Assembly (NCBI GenBank): GCA_017458065.1 | Contig: JAFTGD010000012.1 | Coordinates: 1-64,000, forward strand | Source of the DNA: Oscillospiraceae bacterium | GTDB taxonomy: Bacteria > Bacillota > Clostridia > Oscillospirales > Oscillospiraceae | Length of the DNA stretch: 64,000 nt | Direction of reading: 5' to 3' | Shown: piece by piece, positions 38,967 to 50,694 of the stretch | Layout: each line of letters begins with the position of its first letter | How positions within the stretch are numbered: the first letter of the stretch is position 1 | Program-made: the position numbers and the translations under genes | The notes under the pieces: model-generated | Seen by the model: only the letters and a program-made list of their open reading frames with translations | What the model was told of the DNA's origin: nothing | Databases searched by the model: none

Positions 38967-40172
38967 TCAGGCCTCGCTGATGATGCGGCGGATGACTTTT
39001 TCGCAGCGCTTTTTGTTGTAGACGACGGGAACGGGATAGACGGGGTTTGCCTCGGCGAGGGCCCACTTGATCATCTGGGGGATGTCCTCTTCCTTGATGA
39101 AGTCAAAGCCGGTGGGGATCTCCATCCGGCGGTTCATGGCGCGGATCTCCGCGATGAAGGCTTTGGCCTTCTCTTCGTCGCTGCCGGTGAATTTCACCCC
39201 GGTGAGCTCGGCCAGATGGGCCAGTTTTTCATAGACGGCTTCGCCGTAGTCCTCCAGCACGATGGGCAGGATCACGGCGTTGGCCAGACCGTGCGGCGTG
39301 TTGTAGAGCCCGCCGAGCGTGTGGGCGATGGCATGGACGTTGCCGACGCCGGCGCGGGTGAAGGCAAAGCCGGCCTTGTAGGAGGCAATCAGCATCTGGG
39401 TGCGGGCCTCCATGTCGTTGCCGTCGCGGTAGGCGCGCTCCAGATAGCGGAAAATCTCGCAGACCGCCTCTTCGGCGAGGCGGATGCTCTCATTGGTGTT
39501 GTAGGTCCAGCAGACGTAGGCTTCCACAGCGTGGGTCAGCGCGTCCATGCCGGTGGTGGAGGTGATTTTAGGCGGGAGTTCGCGGGTCATCTCCGGATCG
39601 AGCACGGCATATTTCGGGATGAGATGCAGATCCATAAGCGCATACTTGTGGTGGGTGTCGCTGTCGGTGATGACGGCGGCGATGGTCGTCTCGGAGCCGG
39701 TGCCGGCCGTGGTGGGGACGGCGATGAAGGGCGGGATCTTTTTCATGACCTTCAGAAGGCCTGCCATCTGGCCGACCTGTGTGCGCGGACGGACGACGCG
39801 GGCCGCGGCAGCCTTTGCCGCGTCCATGGGAGAGCCTCCGCCGATGGCGATGAAGCCGTCGCAGGCGTTGTCGAGATAGAGCTTCTGGATTTTGTTTACC
39901 GTGTTGACGGAGGGGTTGGACTCCACTTCCGTAAAGAGCACATAGGGGATCCCGGCCGCGTCCAGCTCGGTCAGAATCTTCGGCGCCAGCTTCTTCCCGA
40001 TGGTGGGGCCGGTGACGACCATGGCTTTTGTGACCTTTTCTTTTTTCAGGAGCTCGGGGATCTTACGGATGCTGCCGATGCCGGAGACAGGGATCGGGCG
40101 GCGCCAGTACAGAAACCGGGCGCCCACGTTGAACACCGCCTGGAAAGAGCGGTAGTATGCTTTTTTCACCAT
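38967..40172 (-). CDS. Iron-containing alcohol dehydrogenase
   Basis: A 401-residue cytoplasmic NAD(P)-dependent alcohol dehydrogenase of the Fe-ADH superfamily. It has the GGGSPMDAAKAAA nucleotide site (about 105-118), TTAGTGSETT, and metal-ligand region DALTHAVEAYV plus GNVHAIAHTLGGLYNTPHGLANAV. The start at 40172 is supported by GGAGG about ten bases upstream; a longer frame is open to 40214. The substrate is unknown. It is transcribed divergently from the aldehyde oxidoreductase at 40330, so interconverting an alcohol and the aldehyde handled by that enzyme is a sensible but unproven role. Confidence 0.92.
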   Translation of the reverse strand: MVKKAYYRSFQAVFNVGARFLYWRRPIPVSGIGSIRKIPELLKKEKVTKAMVVTGPTIGKKLAPKILTELDAAGIPYVLFTEVESNPSVNTVNKIQKLYLDNACDGFIAIGGGSPMDAAKAAAARVVRPRTQVGQMAGLLKVMKKIPPFIAVPTTAGTGSETTIAAVITDSDTHHKYALMDLHLIPKYAVLDPEMTRELPPKITSTTGMDALTHAVEAYVCWTYNTNESIRLAEEAVCEIFRYLERAYRDGNDMEARTQMLIASYKAGFAFTRAGVGNVHAIAHTLGGLYNTPHGLANAVILPIVLEDYGEAVYEKLAHLAELTGVKFTGSDEEKAKAFIAEIRAMNRRMEIPTGFDFIKEEDIPQMIKWALAEANPVYPVPVVYNKKRCEKVIRRIISEA

Positions 40173-40329
40173 AGCTGATATCCTCCAAATCCATGATACG
40201 ATATACTTTACCACCTTACGGAGAAATCCGCAAGGATGGATCTTCCGACGGTGTGGGTAAAGGGGGCTTTCTTTTTGCCGCGTTTTGCGGTATGATATTC
40301 CCTACTACAGGATAAAGGACGTCGGAACA

Positions 40330-42249
40330 ATGACGAATTACTGCGGATATATGGGCAAGGTCCTTGTGCTGGACCTGACAACAAAGAAAACAGAAAACTA
40401 TATCTGGACGGATCTGGACCGGGAGAAGTACATCGGCGGCAAGGCCATGGCGTCCAAGATCCTCTATGACAATCTGACCGGGTCGGAGACGCCCTTTGGT
40501 CCGGAGAACCTGATCGTGATCGCGACCGGGCCGCTGACCGGGACGGGTGCGCCCTCTTCCAACCGCTTTGACATCTCCTCGCTCTCCCCGCTGACGGGGA
40601 TAACCTCTTCCTCTAACTGCGGAGGGAACTTCGGCCACTATCTGAAGAAAGCGGGGCTCGATGCCCTGATCATCCGCGGGGCCTGTGAAGAGCTGAACTG
40701 GGTGGAGATCGACAATGGGGAATTTGTCTTTCACGATGCCGCGGATCTTCAAGATCTGAAGTGCGGCGAGACCCAGGATACGCTGCAAAAAAAGCTGAAC
40801 GAGGCGCACGGCAGACAGATCCGCTGCGGCATGGTCTGTATCGGACCGGCGGGAGAAAACCTTGTGCGCTACGCTTCCGTCATCAGCGGGGAGCGCGCCG
40901 CCGGCCGCGCCGGGATGGGTGCGGTCTTCGGCAGCAAGAAGCTGAAGGCCATCACCGCGGCGGGAGACGCGGTCCCGACCGTTTTCGATAAGGAAGGCGC
41001 GGCCGAACACCGGAAAAAGTGGGTGAATTACATCCGCAGCCACCCGCTGACCGGCGACCAGCTGCCGAAGCTGGGGACCGCGGGGCTTGTGAGTTCCATG
41101 CAGGTGCACGGGCTGCTTTCCACACGCAACTACGCGAAAGGTCAGTTTGAGGAATTTGAAAAGGTAAACGGCGAGACCCTGGCCGAAGAACTGAACGTTG
41201 CAAACAACGGCTGCCTCTCCTGCCCGATCCGCTGCACGCGCAGAGTCCCCGTGGAGGGGAAGACGGTCAAGGGACCGGAGCTGGAGACGCTGGGTCTTCT
41301 GGGCGGCAATATCGAGAATGCCGATCTGGAACAGATCTGCCGCTGGAACTATGAGCTGGATGAGCTGGGCATGGACACCATCTCCGCAGCGGGCACGCTG
41401 GCCTGGGCCATGGAGGCCAACGAAAAGGGCATCTGGAAGAGCGGTCTTGCTTTCGGCGAGAGGGAAAAGCTTTCGCAGGTCTTTGACGACATCGCGCACC
41501 GGCGCGGCATCGGCGCCGAGCTGGCCGAGGGCAGCAGACGCCTGAGCAAAAAGTACGGCGGGCAGGACTTTGCCATCCAGTCAAAGGGGATGGAGCTGGC
41601 GGCTTATGAGCCGCGCCGCGCCGTAGGCCAGGGCCTGGGCTATGCGGTCGCCAACCGCGGCGGCTGCCACTTAAACGGCGGGTACCTGGTGGTCCTGGAG
41701 GGCCTCGGCCTGAACATTGACGGGCAGACGCCCAGGGGCAAGGCGGATCTCTGCATGGTGATGCAGGATCTGATGGAAGCTATCAGCTGCGGCGGACAGT
41801 GCCTGTTCACCTCCTATGGGGTCGTACCCGGTTTCATGATCCGCAACCCCAACGGCCTGCTGCAGCGGGCGGTGAACGCGGTTGTGCCTTTCGCGGGGCC
41901 GGCGGTGCGCGTGTACAACAAGATCCCGGAGGTCGCCTGCTTCAACATCCCGCTGATCCCTTACCCGACCGAGCTCTATTACACCACCGGCATGAAGATG
42001 ACGCTGGGACAGTTTACCCGGGCGGGGGAACGGAGCTATAACGTAGAGCGCGCCGTGAATGCCCGCTTTGGCGTCAGCGCCGCCAACGACAAGCTGCCCA
42101 AGCGTCTGACGGACGCGCCCCAGGACCCGAACAACCCGAAGACAAAGGTACCTCTTGAGCAGATGAAAAAGACCTATTACCGCGCCCGCGGCTGGGGCAA
42201 AAACGGTCTACCCGGAGAGAAGAAGCTGAGACGCCTGGGGATCCGCTGA
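40330..42249 (+). CDS. Aldehyde:ferredoxin oxidoreductase family protein (tungstopterin), copy 1
   Basis: A 639-residue enzyme of the AOR family, which oxidises aldehydes to acids with ferredoxin at a bis-pyranopterin tungsten centre. The N-terminal GKVLVLDLTTKKTE..YIGGKAMASKILYDNL, the pterin region (IATGPLTGTGAPSSNRFDISSLSPLTG) and GERAAGRAGMGAVFGSKKLKAI are family hallmarks. The [4Fe-4S] ligands are CLSCPIRC plus a distant Cys in SCGGQCLF. AAGGA ten bases upstream fixes the ATG at 40330. The MoaD-like gene starts on the last base of its stop. No separate iron-sulfur small subunit is adjacent. Metal identity is inferred from the family and the tup genes. Confidence 0.9.
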   Translation: MTNYCGYMGKVLVLDLTTKKTENYIWTDLDREKYIGGKAMASKILYDNLTGSETPFGPENLIVIATGPLTGTGAPSSNRFDISSLSPLTGITSSSNCGGNFGHYLKKAGLDALIIRGACEELNWVEIDNGEFVFHDAADLQDLKCGETQDTLQKKLNEAHGRQIRCGMVCIGPAGENLVRYASVISGERAAGRAGMGAVFGSKKLKAITAAGDAVPTVFDKEGAAEHRKKWVNYIRSHPLTGDQLPKLGTAGLVSSMQVHGLLSTRNYAKGQFEEFEKVNGETLAEELNVANNGCLSCPIRCTRRVPVEGKTVKGPELETLGLLGGNIENADLEQICRWNYELDELGMDTISAAGTLAWAMEANEKGIWKSGLAFGEREKLSQVFDDIAHRRGIGAELAEGSRRLSKKYGGQDFAIQSKGMELAAYEPRRAVGQGLGYAVANRGGCHLNGGYLVVLEGLGLNIDGQTPRGKADLCMVMQDLMEAISCGGQCLFTSYGVVPGFMIRNPNGLLQRAVNAVVPFAGPAVRVYNKIPEVACFNIPLIPYPTELYYTTGMKMTLGQFTRAGERSYNVERAVNARFGVSAANDKLPKRLTDAPQDPNNPKTKVPLEQMKKTYYRARGWGKNGLPGEKKLRRLGIR

Positions 42250-42503
42250 TGGTGACGGTCAAGCTTTTCGGTACGCTGCGGCTGGACAGCGGAGTCAGAG
42301 AATTCACCGCCGAGGCGGACAGCGTGAGAGCCCTGTATCCGCAGGTGCTGGCGGAGATCCGAGCCCGGAAGCCGGACAGCGCCGTCACGGAGAAGACGCT
42401 GCGGGCCTGTCTCGTCGCGGTGAACGGGCAGCAGACTACGCCCCGGGCCAGACTTAAGAACGGGGATGTGGTGTATCTGTTCCCGGCGGTCGCAGGCGGT
42501 TGA
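42249..42503 (+). CDS. MoaD/ThiS-like sulfur carrier, paired with AOR copy 1
   Basis: An 84-residue ubiquitin-fold protein with the MVTVKLFGTLRL start, NGDVVYLFPAV and a C-terminal Gly-Gly, the site that is adenylated and thiocarboxylated to donate sulfur to pyranopterin. It overlaps the AOR stop by one base (TGATG), so the two are translated together. A second such protein follows the other AOR at 53802. It may be a dedicated small molybdopterin-synthase subunit or a partner with another role. The large MoaE subunit is not encoded in the window. Confidence 0.87.
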   Translation: MVTVKLFGTLRLDSGVREFTAEADSVRALYPQVLAEIRARKPDSAVTEKTLRACLVAVNGQQTTPRARLKNGDVVYLFPAVAGG

Positions 42504-42528
42504 AAACAAAGCCAGGAAAAAACAGTAC

Positions 42529-42580
42529 AAAGCCGACAGGGCTGTCCGGAAATGATCTTCCGGGCAGCCCTGTCGGCTTT
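42529..42580. terminator. Bidirectional terminator between moaD-like gene and tupC
   Basis: A long near-perfect inverted repeat (AAAGCCGACAGGGCTG paired with CAGCCCTGTCGGCTTT, plus an inner CCGG stem) lies between convergent genes. Confidence 0.88.
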
Positions 42581-42597
42581 CACAGGATGAAAGACAA

Positions 42598-43251
42598 TCA
42601 GAGACCGTAAAACTCCAGAAATTCTTTCAGTTCCGAGCTCTGCGGAGCAGTGAGCAGCCGGTCGGCAGGGCCCTGTTCACAGAGCTCGCCCCGATGCAGG
42701 AAGAGAACCTCATCGGCGATCCGCCGAGCCTGCTGGAGACTGTGGGTCACGAGAAGGATCGTGGCGCCGGTTTTCTCGCGGTATTCCAGAAGCAGTTTCT
42801 CCGCGGCAAGGGTGGACTCCATGTCCATGGCGGCAGTCGGTTCATCCAGAATAAGCAGCGCATAATCCCGCATCAGGAGCCGGGCGAGGGCCATTTTGGC
42901 GGTCTCCCCGCCGGAGAGCTTTCCGGCGTGCTGGCGCGCAAGCGAATCCAGCTGCAGCGCCTGCAGCAGGCGCTGCATGCGTTCCGGGTCGCTGCCGTTG
43001 AGCCGGAGATTCTTTTCCAGACTCATGCGAAAGGCGTAGTTCTTCTGAGGCATATATCCAAGCTGCAGGGGAGGGAGGGGACTGATATGTCCGTCCGCGC
43101 GCTCCAGCCCGGCGAGCACCTTTGCCAGCGTGGATTTGCCGCTGCCGTTCGGACCGATGACGGCAGTGACGGAGCCCTCCGCCACGGACAAATCCGGAAA
43201 ACGCAAAGCACAGCGGCCGCGGTAGCTCTTGGAAAATGCCGCGATGTTCAT
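42598..43251 (-). CDS. tupC: ABC transporter ATPase for tungstate
   Basis: A 217-residue cytoplasmic ATPase subunit. Walker A is GPNGSGKSTLAKVLAGL (about 33-49), the signature is KLSGGETAKMALARLL, Walker B is ALLILDEPTAAMD, and the switch His is in LLVTHSLQQA. It starts within the stop of the permease gene (ATGA). Assignment to the Tup system follows from the adjacent TupB-like permease and the TTTSVNDSGLL binding protein. It is short and lacks the regulatory C-terminal domain seen in ModC/WtpC-type ATPases, which fits TupC. Confidence 0.88.
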   Translation of the reverse strand: MNIAAFSKSYRGRCALRFPDLSVAEGSVTAVIGPNGSGKSTLAKVLAGLERADGHISPLPPLQLGYMPQKNYAFRMSLEKNLRLNGSDPERMQRLLQALQLDSLARQHAGKLSGGETAKMALARLLMRDYALLILDEPTAAMDMESTLAAEKLLLEYREKTGATILLVTHSLQQARRIADEVLFLHRGELCEQGPADRLLTAPQSSELKEFLEFYGL

Positions 43252-43934
43252 CTGCTCAGCCTCCTCTGCATCAGGGACAGAACCGTATTGACGACGAGGG
43301 AGAGCAGCATCAGGATCATCCCAAGCGCGATGCCCAGCGTAAAATTGCCCCGGTTCGTGTACTGCATGATGGCTGTGGTCATGACGTTGGTCTTCCAGGC
43401 AATGGCGCCGCCCACCATGGACACTGCCCCGACCTCTGCAATGGCTCTGGCAAAGGCCAGCAGATAGACGGAGAAGATCGGATAAACGCACTCGTTGAGC
43501 AGAAGCAGAAAGCGTTTCCCGAGGCCGAAGCCCAGCCCTTTTGCGGTCTCCCGCAGCGGCGGGGCAATCTCGGCGACATAGGTCTCCATGTTCCCGATGA
43601 CGATGGGAGTAATGAGGACTACCTGGGCGATGATCATGAGCTTCACCGTGAAGAGCAGTTTCAAATGGCGGAAGGGGCCGACGCCGGAAAACAGCAGATA
43701 GAAAAGCAGCCCGCAGACCACGGGAGGCATACCCATCAGGGTGCGGTTGACCACCAGAAGAACGCCGCGGCCGGGGAAACGGCCTGCGCCCAGTGCGATC
43801 CCGATAGGAAGCCCGATCAGCAGCGCGAGGACGGAACTTGTCAGGCTGACCCTTGCCGTTGTCGACAGTATGTTCAGAAGCTCCCGGTCTGCCGAGAGGA
43901 TCAGGAGTATGGCTTTGTGTATCGCAGAACCCAT
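43248..43934 (-). CDS. tupB: Tungstate ABC transporter permease
   Basis: A 228-residue integral membrane protein with about five helices. The cytoplasmic coupling (EAA) loop reads RETAKGLGFGLGKRFLLLLNE, and the LARAIAEVGAVSMVGG-like stretch (here AFARAIAEVGAVSMVGGAI) is typical of TupB/ModB permeases. Overlap with tupC is four bases. A hairpin at 43951 separates it from tupA, which allows the binding protein to be made in excess. Confidence 0.9.
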   Translation of the reverse strand: MGSAIHKAILLILSADRELLNILSTTARVSLTSSVLALLIGLPIGIALGAGRFPGRGVLLVVNRTLMGMPPVVCGLLFYLLFSGVGPFRHLKLLFTVKLMIIAQVVLITPIVIGNMETYVAEIAPPLRETAKGLGFGLGKRFLLLLNECVYPIFSVYLLAFARAIAEVGAVSMVGGAIAWKTNVMTTAIMQYTNRGNFTLGIALGMILMLLSLVVNTVLSLMQRRLSR

Positions 43935-43950
43935 CTTGCGCTCCTTATGC

Positions 43951-43982
43951 AGATAGCCTTGGGAATGATCCCAAGGCTATCT
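43951..43982 (-). terminator. Intra-operon hairpin between tupA and tupB
   Basis: A perfect 13-bp inverted repeat (43951-43963 and 43970-43982, loop AATGAT). There is no U-tract on the minus strand, so it is more likely to be an mRNA-stabilising or attenuating structure than a full terminator. Confidence 0.65.
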
Positions 43983-44010
43983 TACTAAAACTTGAGGCTT
44001 TGGTCAAGGT

Positions 44011-44988
44011 TTACATGACGCCGTCGTTGGCCACAAAGGTGAGGAAGGTGGCCTTGTCCGTGAGAATGTAAGCGCCCATCTCCTCGGCCATGACCAGGCA
44101 GGCGCCCATACCGGCGTTGGCGGAGACATACCAGTCGGTATAGTCGGCAAAGGACTCGGCATCCGCGGTGATCCCCAGATCCTCCGGCCAGAGAGCAAGC
44201 TCCTTGCTGTGGGTGCCGGAGCCGTCGCCGCGGGAGATGAAGGTGTACTTTCCGTCGGCAATGGCCTTGAAAGCGGCGAGGACGTCTTCGGCGTCCTTTA
44301 CGCCTGCAGGATCCTCAGAGGGGCCGCAGAGCACGAAGAAGTTGTACATATAGGTCATGCGCTCCGCTTCCATGCCGTCCAGCACATAGGCGAAGCCGTC
44401 TTCTACAAAAGCCTCTTCCTGGGCCTTGGCGTGGACCAGGATCAGGTCGGCGTTGCCCATCTTGGCGTTGGCGATGGCCTTGCCGGTGCCGGCGGAGTAG
44501 ACCTCGGTCTCATAGCCGTACTTCTCTTCAAAGATCGGCAGCAGATAGCCGAGCAGACCGGAATCGTTCACAGAGGTGGTGGTGGAAAGACGGATCAGTT
44601 TGGTCTCTTCGGTGGCCTCCAGGATCTCAGCCGTGGAAACAGGGCGCTCGTCCTTCAGATAGAAAAGATACTCGCCGTAGTCGGCATAGCCATAGTTGGC
44701 GGCGGCCTCTTCACCCTCTTCGGAGAGCAGCCAGTTGATCAGCGCGGCAGCGCCAACCGTGTTGAGCTCCACATCCTCGACCGCGTTGCCGTCGGCGTCC
44801 ACAAAGGGAGCGTCGGGGTTCACGGCGAGAAGGGTGTAGTTGTTGATCATGTTGTCGTCGGCTTCCTTCAGGATCATGGTATCGACGACCAGGGCGTCGG
44901 TCTCCTCCGCTGCCTCTGCAAAGGCGGCGACCGAACCGAGCGCAAAGAGCATGACGACGCAGAGCAGCAGGGAAATGGGCTTTTTCAT
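44011..44988 (-). CDS. tupA: Tungstate-binding protein, apparently circularly permuted
   Basis: Extracytoplasmic binding protein, 325 residues, with a Sec signal (about 5-27). Residues 132-325 match the start and middle of TupA proteins: IRLSTTTSVNDSGLL, YSAGTGKAIANAKMGNADLILVHA, FISRGDGSGTHSKELALW, GMGACLVMAEEMGAYILTDKATFL. The segment that normally follows (LxIxVEGD..L.N.Y.V.AVNP, then A..FI.WL.S.EGQ) is missing at the C-terminus. A corresponding stretch instead lies ahead of the domain (residues 33-110: VVDTMILKEADDNMINNYTLLAVNPDA, ALINWLLSEEGEE). Only 76 bases separate its stop from tupB, so there is no room for a lost tail. GGAGGA precedes the ATG at 44988. Confidence 0.88.
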   Translation of the reverse strand: MKKPISLLLCVVMLFALGSVAAFAEAAEETDALVVDTMILKEADDNMINNYTLLAVNPDAPFVDADGNAVEDVELNTVGAAALINWLLSEEGEEAAANYGYADYGEYLFYLKDERPVSTAEILEATEETKLIRLSTTTSVNDSGLLGYLLPIFEEKYGYETEVYSAGTGKAIANAKMGNADLILVHAKAQEEAFVEDGFAYVLDGMEAERMTYMYNFFVLCGPSEDPAGVKDAEDVLAAFKAIADGKYTFISRGDGSGTHSKELALWPEDLGITADAESFADYTDWYVSANAGMGACLVMAEEMGAYILTDKATFLTFVANDGVM

Positions 44989-45250
44989 AATGGTTCCTCC
45001 TACAATAAAAAATCCCCCTCTCCCGACACAAAACCGACACAGCACCGCTGCGCCTGCTCTGCTTCAGGGAAAGAGGCTCGTCCACCGCTTCCGAAAAGCG
45101 TATGAAATTAAAAGAATATTATCACCCGCACCATTATAATGCAATCGCCAACGGACGGTTTTGTGCCAAATAGGATGAAAACAGACGAAAGTGAATATAT
45201 CTGCGCCAAATCCGCTGATCATGACGATCGGAAAAAGGAACGCCGGAACA

Positions 45251-46132
45251 TCACGCAATGGCAGCTCCGACGCTCCTCGCCTCCTGAACAGCGGAGTCCA
45301 CCAGCTCATGGACATGGTGACAGTTCCCGGCAAGGTGAAGCCATTCAGGACGGCCCAGCCTGCGGATCAGCGCCTGATCAGGGACAAGCCCGACAGCGGT
45401 GATCAGGATATTGCAGTCAAGATTAATGGTCTTACCGGTATCAAGCTGCCTGAGCTTTACACCCGTAAGCCGCCCCTGCCCGCAGACCTCCGTGACAGTT
45501 GTGCGCAGCATCAGGGGGATGCCCGTGGGCTCCAGAAAGCGATGATAGTTGCGGGAAAGCCCGCCGCAGCGTCCACTCTGCTCCACAACGGCGACGACGT
45601 CACAGCCGGCGTCATGGAGCTGTCCCGCCATGATGAGGCCAAGGTCGCCGCTGCCGAGAATAAGAATTCTGCCGGAGGGTCGGCGCTGCCGGAGATTCAG
45701 CTGTTCCTGGATCTGTCCTGCGGTGAAGATACCCGCCGGACGGGAACCGCAAACCGGCAGTTCGCCGATGCTGCGCTCCCGGCAGCCCGTGGCGAGGATC
45801 AAATGCTCAAAACCCGTTTCCCGCAGCCCGCCTCTGGAAGAGAGCAGGGCGGTCCGATCCGGTGAGACGGAGAGCACGTCGGTTTCAGGCAGAAACGGGA
45901 CGCCTGATTCCGTGAGCTGCGATGAGAGAAAAGCGGCGTATTCCGGACCGGTTTTCTCTTCGCCGAAGAGCGCTTTCCCAAATCCGCGATGGCTGCACTG
46001 GGGAAGAATTCCCCCGGGACAGGCTCTGGAATCGACGAGGAGAATGTCCCGAATGCCGTGCTCCCAGGCGGAATGGGCGGCGCTCATTCCCGCGGCGCCG
46101 GCGCCGATGATCAGCAGCTTACAGTGTTCCAT
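45251..46132 (-). CDS. NAD(P)/FAD-dependent oxidoreductase, GlpB-like partner subunit
   Basis: A 293-residue flavoprotein with two dinucleotide folds: LLIIGAGAAGMSAAHSA at the start and RILILGSGDLGLIMAGQL (about 154-171). The signatures GGILPQCSHRGFG, LATGCRERSIGELP and GSRPAGIFTAGQIQ match the clostridial FAD protein usually encoded right after a GlpA-like dehydrogenase. It is shorter than the ~420 residues common for that partner. It overlaps the preceding gene by 14 bases. It may pass electrons between the GlpA-like protein and NAD or ferredoxin. It is the last gene of a five-gene operon that starts at the regulator at 51639. Confidence 0.82.
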   Translation of the reverse strand: MEHCKLLIIGAGAAGMSAAHSAWEHGIRDILLVDSRACPGGILPQCSHRGFGKALFGEEKTGPEYAAFLSSQLTESGVPFLPETDVLSVSPDRTALLSSRGGLRETGFEHLILATGCRERSIGELPVCGSRPAGIFTAGQIQEQLNLRQRRPSGRILILGSGDLGLIMAGQLHDAGCDVVAVVEQSGRCGGLSRNYHRFLEPTGIPLMLRTTVTEVCGQGRLTGVKLRQLDTGKTINLDCNILITAVGLVPDQALIRRLGRPEWLHLAGNCHHVHELVDSAVQEARSVGAAIA

Positions 46133-47558
46133 GAAAGCCTCCGTAAACGGCGGAGTCTCCGCCGGAGCATGTCACCTGTTCTTCCGTGAGGTCCAGTTCC
46201 CGGGCTAAAAGCGCTGTGAGCTTCTGCCGGCAGCGTGCCCCCTGACAGGCGCCCATACCCGTGCCGAGGCGATGTTTGAGCCCGTCGAGAGTGACGGCAC
46301 CGCGCCGGACTGCCTCCAGGACTTCCGCCCGTGTGATGTCTTCACAGCGGCACAGAACTTCGCCATAATCGGGGTCCTGCTCCACAAGGCGCCTTCGCTG
46401 GGCAGGGCTCAGCAGCTTTGCTCGCGTGATCCCGGCGCGGCGGGGAGAGAAGGCCGCGTTGGCTTCTGCCTGCAGAAAGGATGCGGCCTGGGCGGCAACG
46501 TGTGCGCCGAGCGCATCGGCGCAGGTCATGCCGGGCGTCTTGACGCCGATCAGGCTCCAGAAGTTCGGAGCGGGCTGTTCGATGACAAAACTGCGGATGC
46601 TGCTGCCATCCGGACGCTGCGGATTGGGCCGCAGCGCGGCGAAGGACCGGATGGTGTCCCCAATGGAGAGCTGCGGAAACACCCGGGAAGCATAACGGCG
46701 GACAAAATCAAGGCCTTCTGCCGCAGTAGCATAGTCTGTTGTGTTGTCGCGCTCGGACGGTCCCAGAAGCAGACTGCCCTCCACGGTCGGGACGGCCGTC
46801 AGGCCCTTCCCGGCATCCTCCGGCTCCGCCTGGATGATGTGTGAGGGCACGCCGGATGCGTTCGGGTCCAGGACCAGATAATCCCCCGCGTTCGGGACGA
46901 CCGTCACCGGGCACGGAAAGGCGAGCGCCTGGATGCTGTGGGCGCATATCCCGGCACAGTTGATCACCGCGCTGCAGGTATAGGAGCCGGCGCTCGTCTC
47001 CAGCCGGTAGCCGCCGGAGAGAGGGACGATGTTCTGCACTTCGGCGCTGAGAACGGACTCGGCCCCGTTCTGCAGGGCGTTTTCATAGGCGGCGATGCAC
47101 AGCTCCCAGGTATTCACAGTCCCGGCAGAGGGAGCAAAAAGCGCGCTGGAGACACCCGGCGCGACGGCGGGCTCCAGCTGGCAGGCCTCCCGGCCGGAAA
47201 TCAGCCGGAGATCCGGAACACCGTTCTCCAGACCGTGGGCATATTTCCTGCGCAGGACTGCATCCGCGTTCGGACCGTAACTCAGCATAAGAGATCCGCA
47301 GCGCGAGAAGGGGACGTCCAGTTCTTCGCACAGGCGGCTGAAGGCCGCGTTGGACCAAACGGTCATCTCGGCCTTCACAGTGCCCGGTTTGTGGTCATAG
47401 CCGGGATAAACAATGGCGGAATTGGCCCGGGAGATGCCGGTGCAGACATCCTCCCGGGCTTCGACAAGCAGAACAGAGCAGTGCCATCGGCGGAGGTTGC
47501 GCGCGGCAAAACAGCCGAGCAGTCCTCCGCCGATGACGCAGACGTCAAAATGCCGCAT
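46119..47558 (-). CDS. GlpA-like FAD-dependent dehydrogenase with C-terminal [2Fe-2S] (BFD-like) domain
   Basis: A 479-residue flavoprotein. The DAO-type FAD fold begins at residue 5 (VCVIGGGLLGCFAARNL), and a C-terminal BFD-like domain (about 400-460) carries CRC and GACQGARC, four Cys for a [2Fe-2S] cluster. In clostridia such proteins are annotated as anaerobic glycerol-3-phosphate or 2-hydroxyacid dehydrogenases. The substrate here is not defined by sequence. It sits two bases from the MoeA-PBP stop and overlaps the partner flavoprotein, inside a pterin-cofactor operon. That is odd for glycerol metabolism, and a role as redox partner to the aldehyde oxidoreductases is possible. Confidence 0.82.
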   Translation of the reverse strand: MRHFDVCVIGGGLLGCFAARNLRRWHCSVLLVEAREDVCTGISRANSAIVYPGYDHKPGTVKAEMTVWSNAAFSRLCEELDVPFSRCGSLMLSYGPNADAVLRRKYAHGLENGVPDLRLISGREACQLEPAVAPGVSSALFAPSAGTVNTWELCIAAYENALQNGAESVLSAEVQNIVPLSGGYRLETSAGSYTCSAVINCAGICAHSIQALAFPCPVTVVPNAGDYLVLDPNASGVPSHIIQAEPEDAGKGLTAVPTVEGSLLLGPSERDNTTDYATAAEGLDFVRRYASRVFPQLSIGDTIRSFAALRPNPQRPDGSSIRSFVIEQPAPNFWSLIGVKTPGMTCADALGAHVAAQAASFLQAEANAAFSPRRAGITRAKLLSPAQRRRLVEQDPDYGEVLCRCEDITRAEVLEAVRRGAVTLDGLKHRLGTGMGACQGARCRQKLTALLARELDLTEEQVTCSGGDSAVYGGFHGTL

Positions 47559-47560
47559 CG

Positions 47561-49471
47561 TCAGACAAGGTCGATGATCTCGCCGGGATGATCCAGCGTA
47601 TAGCCGCCCATGGCATTGATGCGCGCGGCAAAAGCAGGGCTCTGCAGGGTGGCGATCAGCTGGCGGACTGCGGCGTTGTGCCAGGCGTCGCCCGGGATGA
47701 GCAGGTCATATTCCTCGACGCAAATCGGCAGGAAGTCCAGATCGTAGAGCTTCGCCGTGGAATAGATCCCCATGCCCGCGTCTGCGGAATCGCTGGCAAT
47801 CTGGACGGCAACGGCGTTGTGGGTCATCTCCTCCCGCTCATAGCCGTAGATCTTCTCCGCGGGCACGTTGTGCTTTGCACAGAGATAGTCCATCAGCACG
47901 CGAGTGCCGGAACCCTTCTGCCGGTTGACATAACGCAGACCCTCCTTCGTGATGTCCTCAAAGGAACGGAGGGAGAGGGGGTTGCCCTTCTGCAGCATCA
48001 GGCCCTGCTGCCGTCCGACGCAGCGGACCAGGTATACGCCGCCGCGCGGAAAATACTTGCGGATATAGCTGCGGTTGTAGACGCCGGTCTCCGTGTCCAG
48101 CAGGTGGATACCGGCGGCATGGGCCTCTCCGCGGCGCACAGCCATGATGCCGCCCATGGAGCCGACGTGCGCGGAGCTTACATAGAGACTGTGGTTTTCC
48201 ATGTGGATCAGATCCGCCAGCTCATCCAGCAGCGGGTCATGGCTGCCGATGACAACGAGGGTGTTTTTGAGCTTCTTTTTGGGGTTCAGCAGCCGGACGC
48301 GTACTTCCTCGCCGGACTGATAGCCCTCAGTGCCCTGGGGTACTTCAATGATGCCGTCGGCCTTCATAAAGGAAGAGACCACGCCGCTCCCCCTCGGAAG
48401 CGGGGAGGCGGTCAGCCGGTCGCCCACATAGCCCATGCGCACGCGGACATACTCCTGGTATTTGAGCCCTGAGACCACAGGTCTTGTCAGCGTCGCTCTG
48501 GTGCGGCTGCGGATGTCGCTCTCGCGGCCAAACCAGACATCCACCAGAGGCCGCAGCAGTTCTTCAATGACGATGATACCGGAAACGGGATAGCCGGGTA
48601 CCCCGAGGATGGGCTTGCTGCCGCGGCAGCCGAGGATGGCCGGCTTGCCCGGCTTGATGGCGATGCCGTGATAGAGGACCTCGCCGACCTCCCGGATGGC
48701 GGAGGTGGAGTAGTCGTCCCGACCAGCGGAGGAACCCGCGTTGAGGATCACCATGTCGCATTCTTCCGAGGCCGTCAGAAGCATGTCCCGGATCGCCTCA
48801 AAACGGTCGGGCACAATGGGGTAGGTTTTGGGAACGGCGCCCCAGTCCTGCAGCATGGCCGAAAAGATGGAGGAGTTGAACTCCAGGATATCTCCGGGCT
48901 TCGGGTCGGAGCAGGGCGGGATGATTTCATCCCCGGTGGGAATGATGCCGACGACCGGTCTGCGGAGGACCTCAAGCTCGGTGACGCCGCCGGCAATCAT
49001 GGCGCCGATGGCGGCGGGGGTGATCTCGTAGTATGAGGGGAGAATCATCTCCCCGGCGCAGATGTCCTCTCCGATCTGGCGGATATGCTGCCAGGGCGCC
49101 GCGGCAGCCCGGATGGTGACGGTGCCGTCGTCGTTCCGGACGGTGTCTTCCACCATGATGACGGCATCGCAGCCCTCCGGGACGGGATCGCCCGTATCGA
49201 CGACGACGTAACGGTCCGTTTCCAGCGTCACAGGGGTCGTCTCGGTTGCGCCGAAGCTGTCCCTGGCCCGAAGGGCGATGCCGTCCATGGCGCTGGCCGC
49301 ATAATGCGGGGCGTTGATGCGCGCGTATACGGCGCGGCAGGTGATCCGCCCGTAAGATTCCCGGACGGGAATGCATTCGGAGCAGGAGGCAAAGCCGTGC
49401 CGGCGGAGCAGTTCCATATAGTCTTTTTTTGCCTGGTCCAGAGGGACGTTGGTCAGATATTCAAAGCTCAT
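47561..49471 (-). CDS. MoeA fused to a periplasmic-binding-protein-like domain
   Basis: A 636-residue protein. Residues 1 to about 405 are MoeA, which inserts molybdate or tungstate into adenylylated pyranopterin: APHYAASAMDGIALRA, VDTGDPVPEGCDAVIMVED, GIIPTGDEI, NAGSSAGRDDYS and GVPGYPVSGIIV are the expected blocks. Residues about 412-630 form a binding-protein-like domain (LVVIGSHDPLLDELADLI...HLLDTETGVYN...RQKGSGTRVLMDYL). GGAGG precedes the start. Gaps to its neighbours are 11 and 2 bases, so it is in one operon with a plain MoeA. The C-terminal domain may sense the oxyanion or cofactor; this is inference. Confidence 0.92.
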   Translation of the reverse strand: MSFEYLTNVPLDQAKKDYMELLRRHGFASCSECIPVRESYGRITCRAVYARINAPHYAASAMDGIALRARDSFGATETTPVTLETDRYVVVDTGDPVPEGCDAVIMVEDTVRNDDGTVTIRAAAAPWQHIRQIGEDICAGEMILPSYYEITPAAIGAMIAGGVTELEVLRRPVVGIIPTGDEIIPPCSDPKPGDILEFNSSIFSAMLQDWGAVPKTYPIVPDRFEAIRDMLLTASEECDMVILNAGSSAGRDDYSTSAIREVGEVLYHGIAIKPGKPAILGCRGSKPILGVPGYPVSGIIVIEELLRPLVDVWFGRESDIRSRTRATLTRPVVSGLKYQEYVRVRMGYVGDRLTASPLPRGSGVVSSFMKADGIIEVPQGTEGYQSGEEVRVRLLNPKKKLKNTLVVIGSHDPLLDELADLIHMENHSLYVSSAHVGSMGGIMAVRRGEAHAAGIHLLDTETGVYNRSYIRKYFPRGGVYLVRCVGRQQGLMLQKGNPLSLRSFEDITKEGLRYVNRQKGSGTRVLMDYLCAKHNVPAEKIYGYEREEMTHNAVAVQIASDSADAGMGIYSTAKLYDLDFLPICVEEYDLLIPGDAWHNAAVRQLIATLQSPAFAARINAMGGYTLDHPGEIIDLV

Positions 49472-49482
49472 CGTTATCCTCC

Positions 49483-50694
49483 TTAGTGAAGAAAGACCTG
49501 GACAGGGGCCCCTTTTGGAAGCCCTTCACAGTCGCGTTCGATGCAGAACCAGCCGTCTGCGCCGGCAAGCTGAGTAATCAGTCCGGATTTGGAATGGATC
49601 GGCACGGCGACGACTTTGCCCTCGCGATGCTCCAGCCGGCAGGCGTTAAGCTGGGCGCGGCCATGATTTGCCCCTACGCTTTCGCTCAGCTCCGCGGTCA
49701 CGGAATAGAGCGGCTTTTCCCGGCCGGACAGGCGGTCCAGCAGCGGCAGAACGAACAGCTGAGAGACAAAGTATGCCGCCACCGGGTGACCGGGCAGACC
49801 GACCAGAGGCTTGTTGCCGGCTCTGCCAAGGATGGTGGGCTTGCCGGGCTTCAAGGCGATCCCGTGAAAGAGCAGCTCTCCCATCGACTCGATGATCCGG
49901 CAGGCGGCGTCCTTGACACCGACGCTGCTGCCGCCGGAGAGCAGCACAGCGTCGCACTCCCGCAGGGCCTGTTCTGTTTTGGCGCGCAGGAGGGCTTCAT
50001 CATCCACAACGATGCCGTAGGAGCGCACCTCTGCCCCATGGGCGTATAAAAGAGCGCTCAGCAGGGGAGAGTTGACATCACGCACCTGTCCGGGTCCCGG
50101 CGTTTCATCAGGGGGGACCAGTTCGTCCCCGGTGGAAATCACGCCGACGGTCAGACGGGGACAGACGGCGATTTGCGCCTTCCCAATGGCGGCCAGCGCT
50201 CCGATGTCCGGAACAGTCAGAACATGACCGGCCGGAAGCAGCAGCTTGCCTGGGTAAACGTCGTCCCCGCGGAAAATCACGTTCATACCGGGAGCCGCCG
50301 GTTTCAGAATGCCGACGGTGCCGTCGCCGTAATCCTCGGTATACTCGATCATAACAGCGCTGTCGGCGCCCCGGGGCAGCGCTCCGCCGGTGGGGACATA
50401 GGCGCAGCCCTCTTTGGGGAGGTCAAAATCGGCGCCTTTGCCCATATAAACTTCTCCGCAGACAGAGAAAATTGCCGGGATGGCGTCGGAACAGCCGAAG
50501 GTGTCGGCGGCACGGACGGCATAGCCGTCCACGGTCGAACGGTCAAAGTCCGGCACATATTCTTCCGCGTACACAGCCTCAGCCAGAACCCGGCCGAGCG
50601 CCTCAGAGAGGGGGACGGCCTCTGTCCGTTCCAGCGGTACAAAGGTTTTTCGTATCAGTTCCAACACTTCATCGGGAGTCAATACCTGCAGCAT
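49483..50694 (-). CDS. moeA: Molybdopterin molybdotransferase MoeA
   Basis: A 403-residue MoeA of normal length. It has ALGRVLAEAVYA, the PDFDRSTVDGYAVRA substrate block, MIEYTEDYG, GVISTGDELVPP, LLSGGSSVGVKDAA and GLPGHPVAAYFV. It converts adenylyl-molybdopterin plus oxyanion to the metal cofactor. GGAGG lies nine bases before the ATG, and only three bases separate it from the regulator gene. Two MoeA-type proteins side by side recall organisms that load both molybdenum and tungsten, but metal preference cannot be read from sequence. Confidence 0.95.
   Translation of the reverse strand: MLQVLTPDEVLELIRKTFVPLERTEAVPLSEALGRVLAEAVYAEEYVPDFDRSTVDGYAVRAADTFGCSDAIPAIFSVCGEVYMGKGADFDLPKEGCAYVPTGGALPRGADSAVMIEYTEDYGDGTVGILKPAAPGMNVIFRGDDVYPGKLLLPAGHVLTVPDIGALAAIGKAQIAVCPRLTVGVISTGDELVPPDETPGPGQVRDVNSPLLSALLYAHGAEVRSYGIVVDDEALLRAKTEQALRECDAVLLSGGSSVGVKDAACRIIESMGELLFHGIALKPGKPTILGRAGNKPLVGLPGHPVAAYFVSQLFVLPLLDRLSGREKPLYSVTAELSESVGANHGRAQLNACRLEHREGKVVAVPIHSKSGLITQLAGADGWFCIERDCEGLPKGAPVQVFLH

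Follow-up and report, generated by a model that had tools for sequence, protein, structure and literature searches.

A gene from an Oscillospiraceae bacterium very probably encodes a naturally circularly permuted TupA, in which the block that normally ends this tungstate-binding protein of the TupABC importer stands ahead of the part that normally begins it. The rearrangement would go back to one event in Clostridia, and the product is predicted to keep the fold, tungstate binding and transport role of the family. The gene lies in a stretch of 64,000 nucleotides (the window), where its open reading frame (ORF) runs from 44988 to 44014 on the minus strand with the stop codon at 44013-44011, giving a product of 325 amino acids. 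It sits with genes for TupB and TupC, the latter named by position. The features discussed below are as follows.

44917..44988, minus strand: signal peptide, residues 1-24, read from the sequence, with cleavage after AFA set by eye and without a lipobox cysteine
44653..44892, minus strand: moved block, residues 33-112 (about 31-112 by matches), equivalent to the C-terminal block of ordinary TupA, from BLASTP, hhalign and alignment
44602..44652, minus strand: linker from old C-terminus to old N-terminus, residues 113-129, from a 72-sequence alignment
44014..44601, minus strand: core, residues 130-325, from matches to solved chains, profile-profile comparison and a doubled profile
43935..44010, minus strand: spacer of 76 bases between tupA and tupB, from ORF coordinates
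43952..43981, no strand assigned: hairpin, GATAGCCTTGGG-loop-CCCAAGGCTATC, from folding against shuffles and spacer comparison
43248..43934, minus strand: tupB, tungstate-type ABC permease, with its ATG at 43934, from the TupB tree and NF041773 (143.4 bits, below its 320-bit cut-off; E 8.8e-42)
42598..43251, minus strand: tupC by position, ABC ATPase, from ABC_tran (1.8e-24) and its ORF, with the start picked by eye at an ATG overlapping the tupB stop
40285..42249, plus strand: aldehyde ferredoxin oxidoreductase (AOR)-type gene, from PF01314 (3.2e-111) and PF02730 (3.4e-65)

Segment order of the window protein

A preliminary description of this DNA had assigned residues 132-325 to the start and middle of TupA and residues 33-110 to its end, and both assignments held in database comparisons. 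Residues from 120-132 to 318-321 matched four solved TupA-type chains (3muq, 3lr1, 5my5 and 3kn3) with E values of 4.4e-42 to 1e-28. In three printed alignments a second stretch of the query, beginning at residue 35-39, matched the C-terminal portion of the respective chain, with scores of 4.9, 2.4 and -0.3 bits that are suggestive only and not significant alone. Stronger matches came from an ordinary-order TupA of another family of the same order (L223). By BLASTP, residues 112-318 of the window protein matched residues 28-221 of L223 (54% identity, E 6.7e-69) and residues 31-111 matched residues 223-290 (46% identity, E 3.9e-12), such that two segments that are neighbours in L223 have changed places in the window protein. 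Aligned globally, the moved block and the L223 block had 36 identities in 70 positions and a score of 130, while 1000 shuffles scored 15.4 +/- 5.9 with a maximum of 44, a match far beyond chance.

Profile comparisons gave the same picture. With hhalign, residues 30-122 aligned to columns 184-265 of the ordinary TupA profile (99.3%, E 2.4e-19) and residues 127-325 to columns 9-191 (100%, E 1.2e-81), and a control with the reversed block was negative (1.2%). Both parts together cover columns 9-265 of 265, so homology extends over the whole length of the family, order aside. A permutation-aware alignment had been proposed as a check, and a profile doubled head to tail spanned the window protein in one pass with 251.9 bits; the single ordinary profile needed two pieces in swapped order, with 218.9 and 29.3 bits. 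The ordinary segment order was thus absent from the window protein by BLASTP, profile-profile comparison and doubled profile alike, and these results, along with the recurrence in 136 ORFs and the phylogeny presented below, bear out the original proposal of a circular permutant. The protein scored 129.8 bits against the TupA model NF041772, below its curated cut-off of 400 bits, but this does not discriminate because no genome among 291 from Clostridia attained it. In this bacterial group, order-dependent profile searches catch TupA only piecewise.

The best binding-protein family in Pfam covers residues 133-318 only, which, like the low-scoring second matches to the solved chains, is compatible with residues 33-110 forming an unrelated N-terminal domain in front of a truncated or decaying TupA core. 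The BLASTP and hhalign matches of the block to the ordinary C-terminal block argue against such an extra domain, as do the similar purifying selection on block and core and a tree of the block that recovers the same sisters as the core (both below), and we give this reading almost no chance of being correct.

Distribution and origin of the permuted order

The preliminary description had called for a search for the same order in related genomes, and this search returned the permuted order in 136 fetched ORFs, of which 103 were distinct. The 136 include the window's own ORF and some genomes drawn from both of two collections; they leave out seven broken or cut ORFs (two pieces each from L110 and L155, and L150, L156 and L157) and the permuted loci fetched later (L220-L222 and L227-L229). 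A profile of the C-terminal block built from 78 ordinary TupAs matched ahead of the core in 135 of the 136 ORFs with E values of 2.9e-13 or better, and in the remaining one, the divergent L216, with an E value of 0.0029. Permuted ORFs had 0-6 residues after the core, compared to 61-152 in ordinary ones. A sequencing or assembly error, already discounted at the outset, is excluded by the number of these ORFs, which include one from a one-contig genome of 4.3 Mb (G610; L200/L268).

Within the genus, 32 of the 61 sampled genomes had a match, 31 of them in a single ORF spanning from residue 29 or earlier to residue 323 or later and one (G017) split in two pieces. Thirty of 200 genomes matched in the family sample, with 21 permuted, eight ordinary and one divergent permutant (G580). 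The order sample gave eight matches in 295 genomes (two not fetched as proteins were classed by span), four permuted and four ordinary only, and one of the permuted genomes (G829) also carried an ordinary copy. In the class sample four of 48 matching genomes, out of 391, were permuted by span and 44 were not. Matches were found in 99 of 199 genomes of the phylum sample, with a permuted span in the window's own genome only; 29 others were ordinary as fetched loci and the rest were classed by span, except for further copies fetched from seven genomes (six outside the 29), which were also ordinary. Three low-identity phylum matches with spans starting inside the moved block (G386, G404 and G431) proved to have ordinary order with long N-terminal extensions, as did several other long-frame phylum matches once fetched. 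Extra regions at either end, SH3-like or LysM-like by eye, were also seen in six ordinary TupAs (L169, L177, L116, L121, L122 and L226).

Permutants occur in five family groups (f1, f6, f30, f73 and f180), which makes it likely that the gene was transferred across families or that some draft genomes contain binning errors. The nearest named relatives, among the best 80 of 98, come from draft genomes that carry the label Oscillospiraceae or Ruminococcaceae, and the ruminant gut is the source of many of them. The TTTS and SRGD motifs have disappeared from the divergent permutant of G580 (L216/L265), which the doubled profile spans in one pass with 69.9 bits; no match to the window TupB or TupC was present in the 6 kb fetched around it, and it is perhaps a repurposed paralogue.

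Phylogenetic trees placed the permutants together. In the careful tree of both parts they formed one clade (100/100) nested inside ordinary TupAs, with two ordinary-order sequences, L208 and L223, as sisters (100/99). The core alone gave the same clade (100/100) and sisters (100/97), and so did the 89 columns of the block alone (99/97 for both). These trees used 26 of 75 permuted and 35 of 53 ordinary sequences, taken as random subsets plus chosen rows. Earlier quick trees, lacking L223 and made in the same manner from 32 permuted and 52 or 51 ordinary sequences, had also shown one permuted clade with L208 as sister (support 91 for both parts, 66 for the core and 90 for the block), with a long-branch warning on the placement of L208 and weak support for the core; L144, which had a very long branch, was removed after the first of them. 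In a quick tree of TupB, 26 permuted operons formed one clade (100) whose sister was the TupB of L223 (99); no TupB was found within the 3.6 kb fetched for L208. The congruence of core, block and TupB trees indicates that both parts of TupA and the permease share one line of descent, which is what an intragenic permutation within a single operon would give.

Fusion of a block from a different gene to a truncated TupA would also place it ahead of the core, and an origin of this kind was considered for Treponema pallidum MglB-2, whose permuted part matches poorly (PMC4990184). Here the agreement of the block-only and core-only trees on L208 and L223 as sisters speaks against such chimerism, to which we assign a very small probability. 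A single intragenic permutation with a single origin appears to account for the trees, as one ancestral event in a Clostridia lineage.

Circular permutation usually arises by tandem duplication with partial loss. This route had been proposed for the window gene from its order, and it is consistent with a single origin and with common ancestry of the two parts; no intermediates were found. None of 78 ordinary TupAs had a C-terminal block ahead of the core at E<1 (best 2.5), and none of 74 distinct spacers behind permuted tupA held a remnant of the block at E<1. In the simplest scheme, tupA would have been duplicated in tandem or fused in frame, after which the front of the first copy and the tail of the second would have been lost. 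This would have connected the old C-terminus with the old N-terminus by way of a conserved linker, about 17 residues long. Across 72 permuted sequences A125 of this linker is invariant, and P116, E121, I122, T126 and T129 are each conserved in at least 90%.

Predicted topology, ligand site and operon

PMC5517513 describes TupA of Desulfovibrio alaskensis as having a lobe A of residues 2-76 and 201-251, a central strand of residues 77-89 and a lobe B of residues 91-200, with a site formed by T9-11, S12, H59, R118, T124 and D170. We mapped the permutant onto this protein through the solved-chain alignments. The end of the permutant (N321) falls a few residues past the equivalent of residue 180, and the start of the moved block (I39) lies near residue 189; the latter position comes from the weak second stretch, in agreement with the profile-profile and L223 alignments. 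The mapping therefore puts the predicted new ends in lobe B, immediately ahead of the strand leading back into lobe A. The core would comprise the N-terminal half of lobe A, the central strand and most of lobe B, and the moved block the last strand of lobe B and the C-terminal half of lobe A, with about 11 residues more than ordinary TupA in the APFVDADGNAVEDV region.

From this mapping, the permutation would have opened the chain in a lobe B loop ahead of the strand back to lobe A, making lobe A one continuous stretch, keeping the two crossovers and placing the export signal or anchor, along with the N-terminus, on lobe B rather than lobe A. The permutant would still fold as the usual two-lobed tungstate trap. 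A domain-swapped dimer, in which two molecules trade moved blocks and complete the fold in trans, would involve the same residues, and sequence comparison alone is compatible with it. D. alaskensis TupA is monomeric by SAXS, according to the same paper (PMC5517513), and the linker is conserved as for an intramolecular join, though less constrained than its flanks (median dN/dS 0.321, about twice the values of 0.167 for the block and 0.154 for the core, with 58-60 of 71 pairs usable in each case). We therefore regard the swapped dimer as improbable and retain the single-chain fold.

All eight published ligand positions are identical in the window protein, where they correspond to TTTS (136-139), H186, R253, T259 and D311. 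In D. alaskensis numbering, T9, T10, S12, H59, R118, T124 and D170 are the same in 72 of 72 permutants and T11 in 71 of 72, in an alignment filtered at 93% identity from which L103 and L216 were left out as short. Tungstate would be held by the same residues as in ordinary TupA, with TTTS on the lobe A side and R, T and D opposite on lobe B. The dN/dS values place both the moved block and the core under purifying selection. A tupB-like gene followed within 400 bp downstream in 124 of the 127 permuted loci with room for one, compared to 50 of 77 ordinary loci, a comparison that favors the permuted group since the query was the window TupB. Recurrence, the adjacent tupB, purifying selection and the conserved ligand positions show that the gene is neither an assembly error nor decaying. 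Most likely the protein still works as TupA and captures tungstate for neighboring enzymes, with the closed form passing it to TupB and TupC.

The AOR-type gene beside the operon is the likely user of the imported tungsten. Of the 136 permuted loci, 28 contained such a gene, as did 17 of the 46 longer than 8.5 kb, and the link of permuted tupA to tungsten enzymes is therefore partial. The source genome, which is 96% complete in 83 contigs, carries two AOR-type genes, both inside the window, and one separate ModA elsewhere; no second TupA was found in it at E<=1e-15. A MoaD-like gene, recognized by eye, also adjoins the operon. Farther along the window (47561-49471), a MoeA-like protein, again by eye, has a long region at its C-terminus, possibly another domain of the binding-protein type. 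In 52 of the 136 permuted-tupA loci a relative of this protein is present.

Known permuted binding proteins, tethering and the intercistronic hairpin

With ordinary TupA (D. alaskensis 5my5, Geobacter sulfurreducens 3lr1 and Vibrio parahaemolyticus 3muq), the permutant shares both blocks, the ligand residues and the adjoining tupBC genes, and it differs in the swapped order, the conserved linker, the extra residues of the block and, by mapping, an N-terminus on lobe B. T. pallidum Tp0684/MglB-2 ("Type Ic / Cluster Bc") is likewise a natural circular permutant of a binding protein; PMC4990184 describes a Type I fold, a glucose ligand, a permuted part with 13% identity and an added fourth crossover. 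In the window TupA, by contrast, the two crossovers would be kept and the moved part is clearly homologous, and its closest solved relatives are TupA-type chains, placing it by sequence outside the MglB-2-like Type Ic group. CPSARST related glycine-betaine-binding proteins by permutation to molybdate-binding proteins and CysB, within the broad fold that contains ModA, a structural relation between families of less than 24% identity (PMC2395249). The TupA permutation, unlike that case, occurs within one family and has ordinary-order sisters at about 50-60% core identity.

Permuted binding proteins are thus already known, and a permuted TupA appears to be new: in line with the preliminary description, which knew of none, no published permuted TupA was found in open-licence full text among the matches listed. 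In the portions of the sources seen, the "TupA" of PMC9557024 is an author name, PMC11980592 does not contain "permut", and PMC9732360 has permuted GFP only. This is a natural permutation inside one narrow transporter family, with sisters close enough to place the breakpoints and with the ligand residues retained. It thereby offers a clean case for the effects of permutation on stability, lobe closure, docking and anchor position in a two-lobed binding protein.

The MglB-2 authors suggested tethering as the reason for that permutation, and in their view members of the group are mostly tethered (PMC4990184). Lipobox counts in permuted TupAs vary with the pattern used, from 69 of 136 ORFs with a strict pattern to 81 of 103 distinct relatives with a simple pattern, the loosest; another pattern gave 97 of 133 permuted and 57 of 78 ordinary sequences. 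The ordinary-order sisters L208 and L223 are also lipoprotein-like by eye and the window protein has no lipobox, and tethering is thus a possible reason for the TupA permutation. Besides the window TupA, 17 other distinct permutants (including L003, L006-L009, L038 and L045) combine a readable signal peptide with the lack of a lipobox cysteine. In ordinary TupA the attachment point is on lobe A, about eight residues ahead of the ligand-binding TTTS (D. alaskensis numbering). That the permutation was retained because it shifts this attachment onto lobe B is a proposal that we consider rather unlikely. If true, T. pallidum MglB-2 would be joined by a second, independent example of a topology altered for a surface-tethered binding protein, and the TupB homodimer would take TupA tethered via either lobe.

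The spacer between the tupA stop and tupB had been described as 76 bases carrying a hairpin; the coordinates were confirmed and the hairpin is strong. A stretch of 90 nt containing it folded with a z-score of -5.85 against 200 shuffles, and no Rfam match reached the gathering threshold near the operon (window 40000-50000). In the source genome, the window hairpin is present once in its exact form. Among 74 distinct spacers of 40-300 bases from the permuted clade, 63 had a stem of at least nine pairs, compared to two of 74 base-shuffled spacers, and paired changes were visible by eye among relatives (AGCCTTGG/CCAAGGCT, AGCCGCGG/CCGCGGCT and AGCCGTGG/CCACGGCT). The hairpin perhaps stabilizes the tupA mRNA or curbs read-through into tupB.
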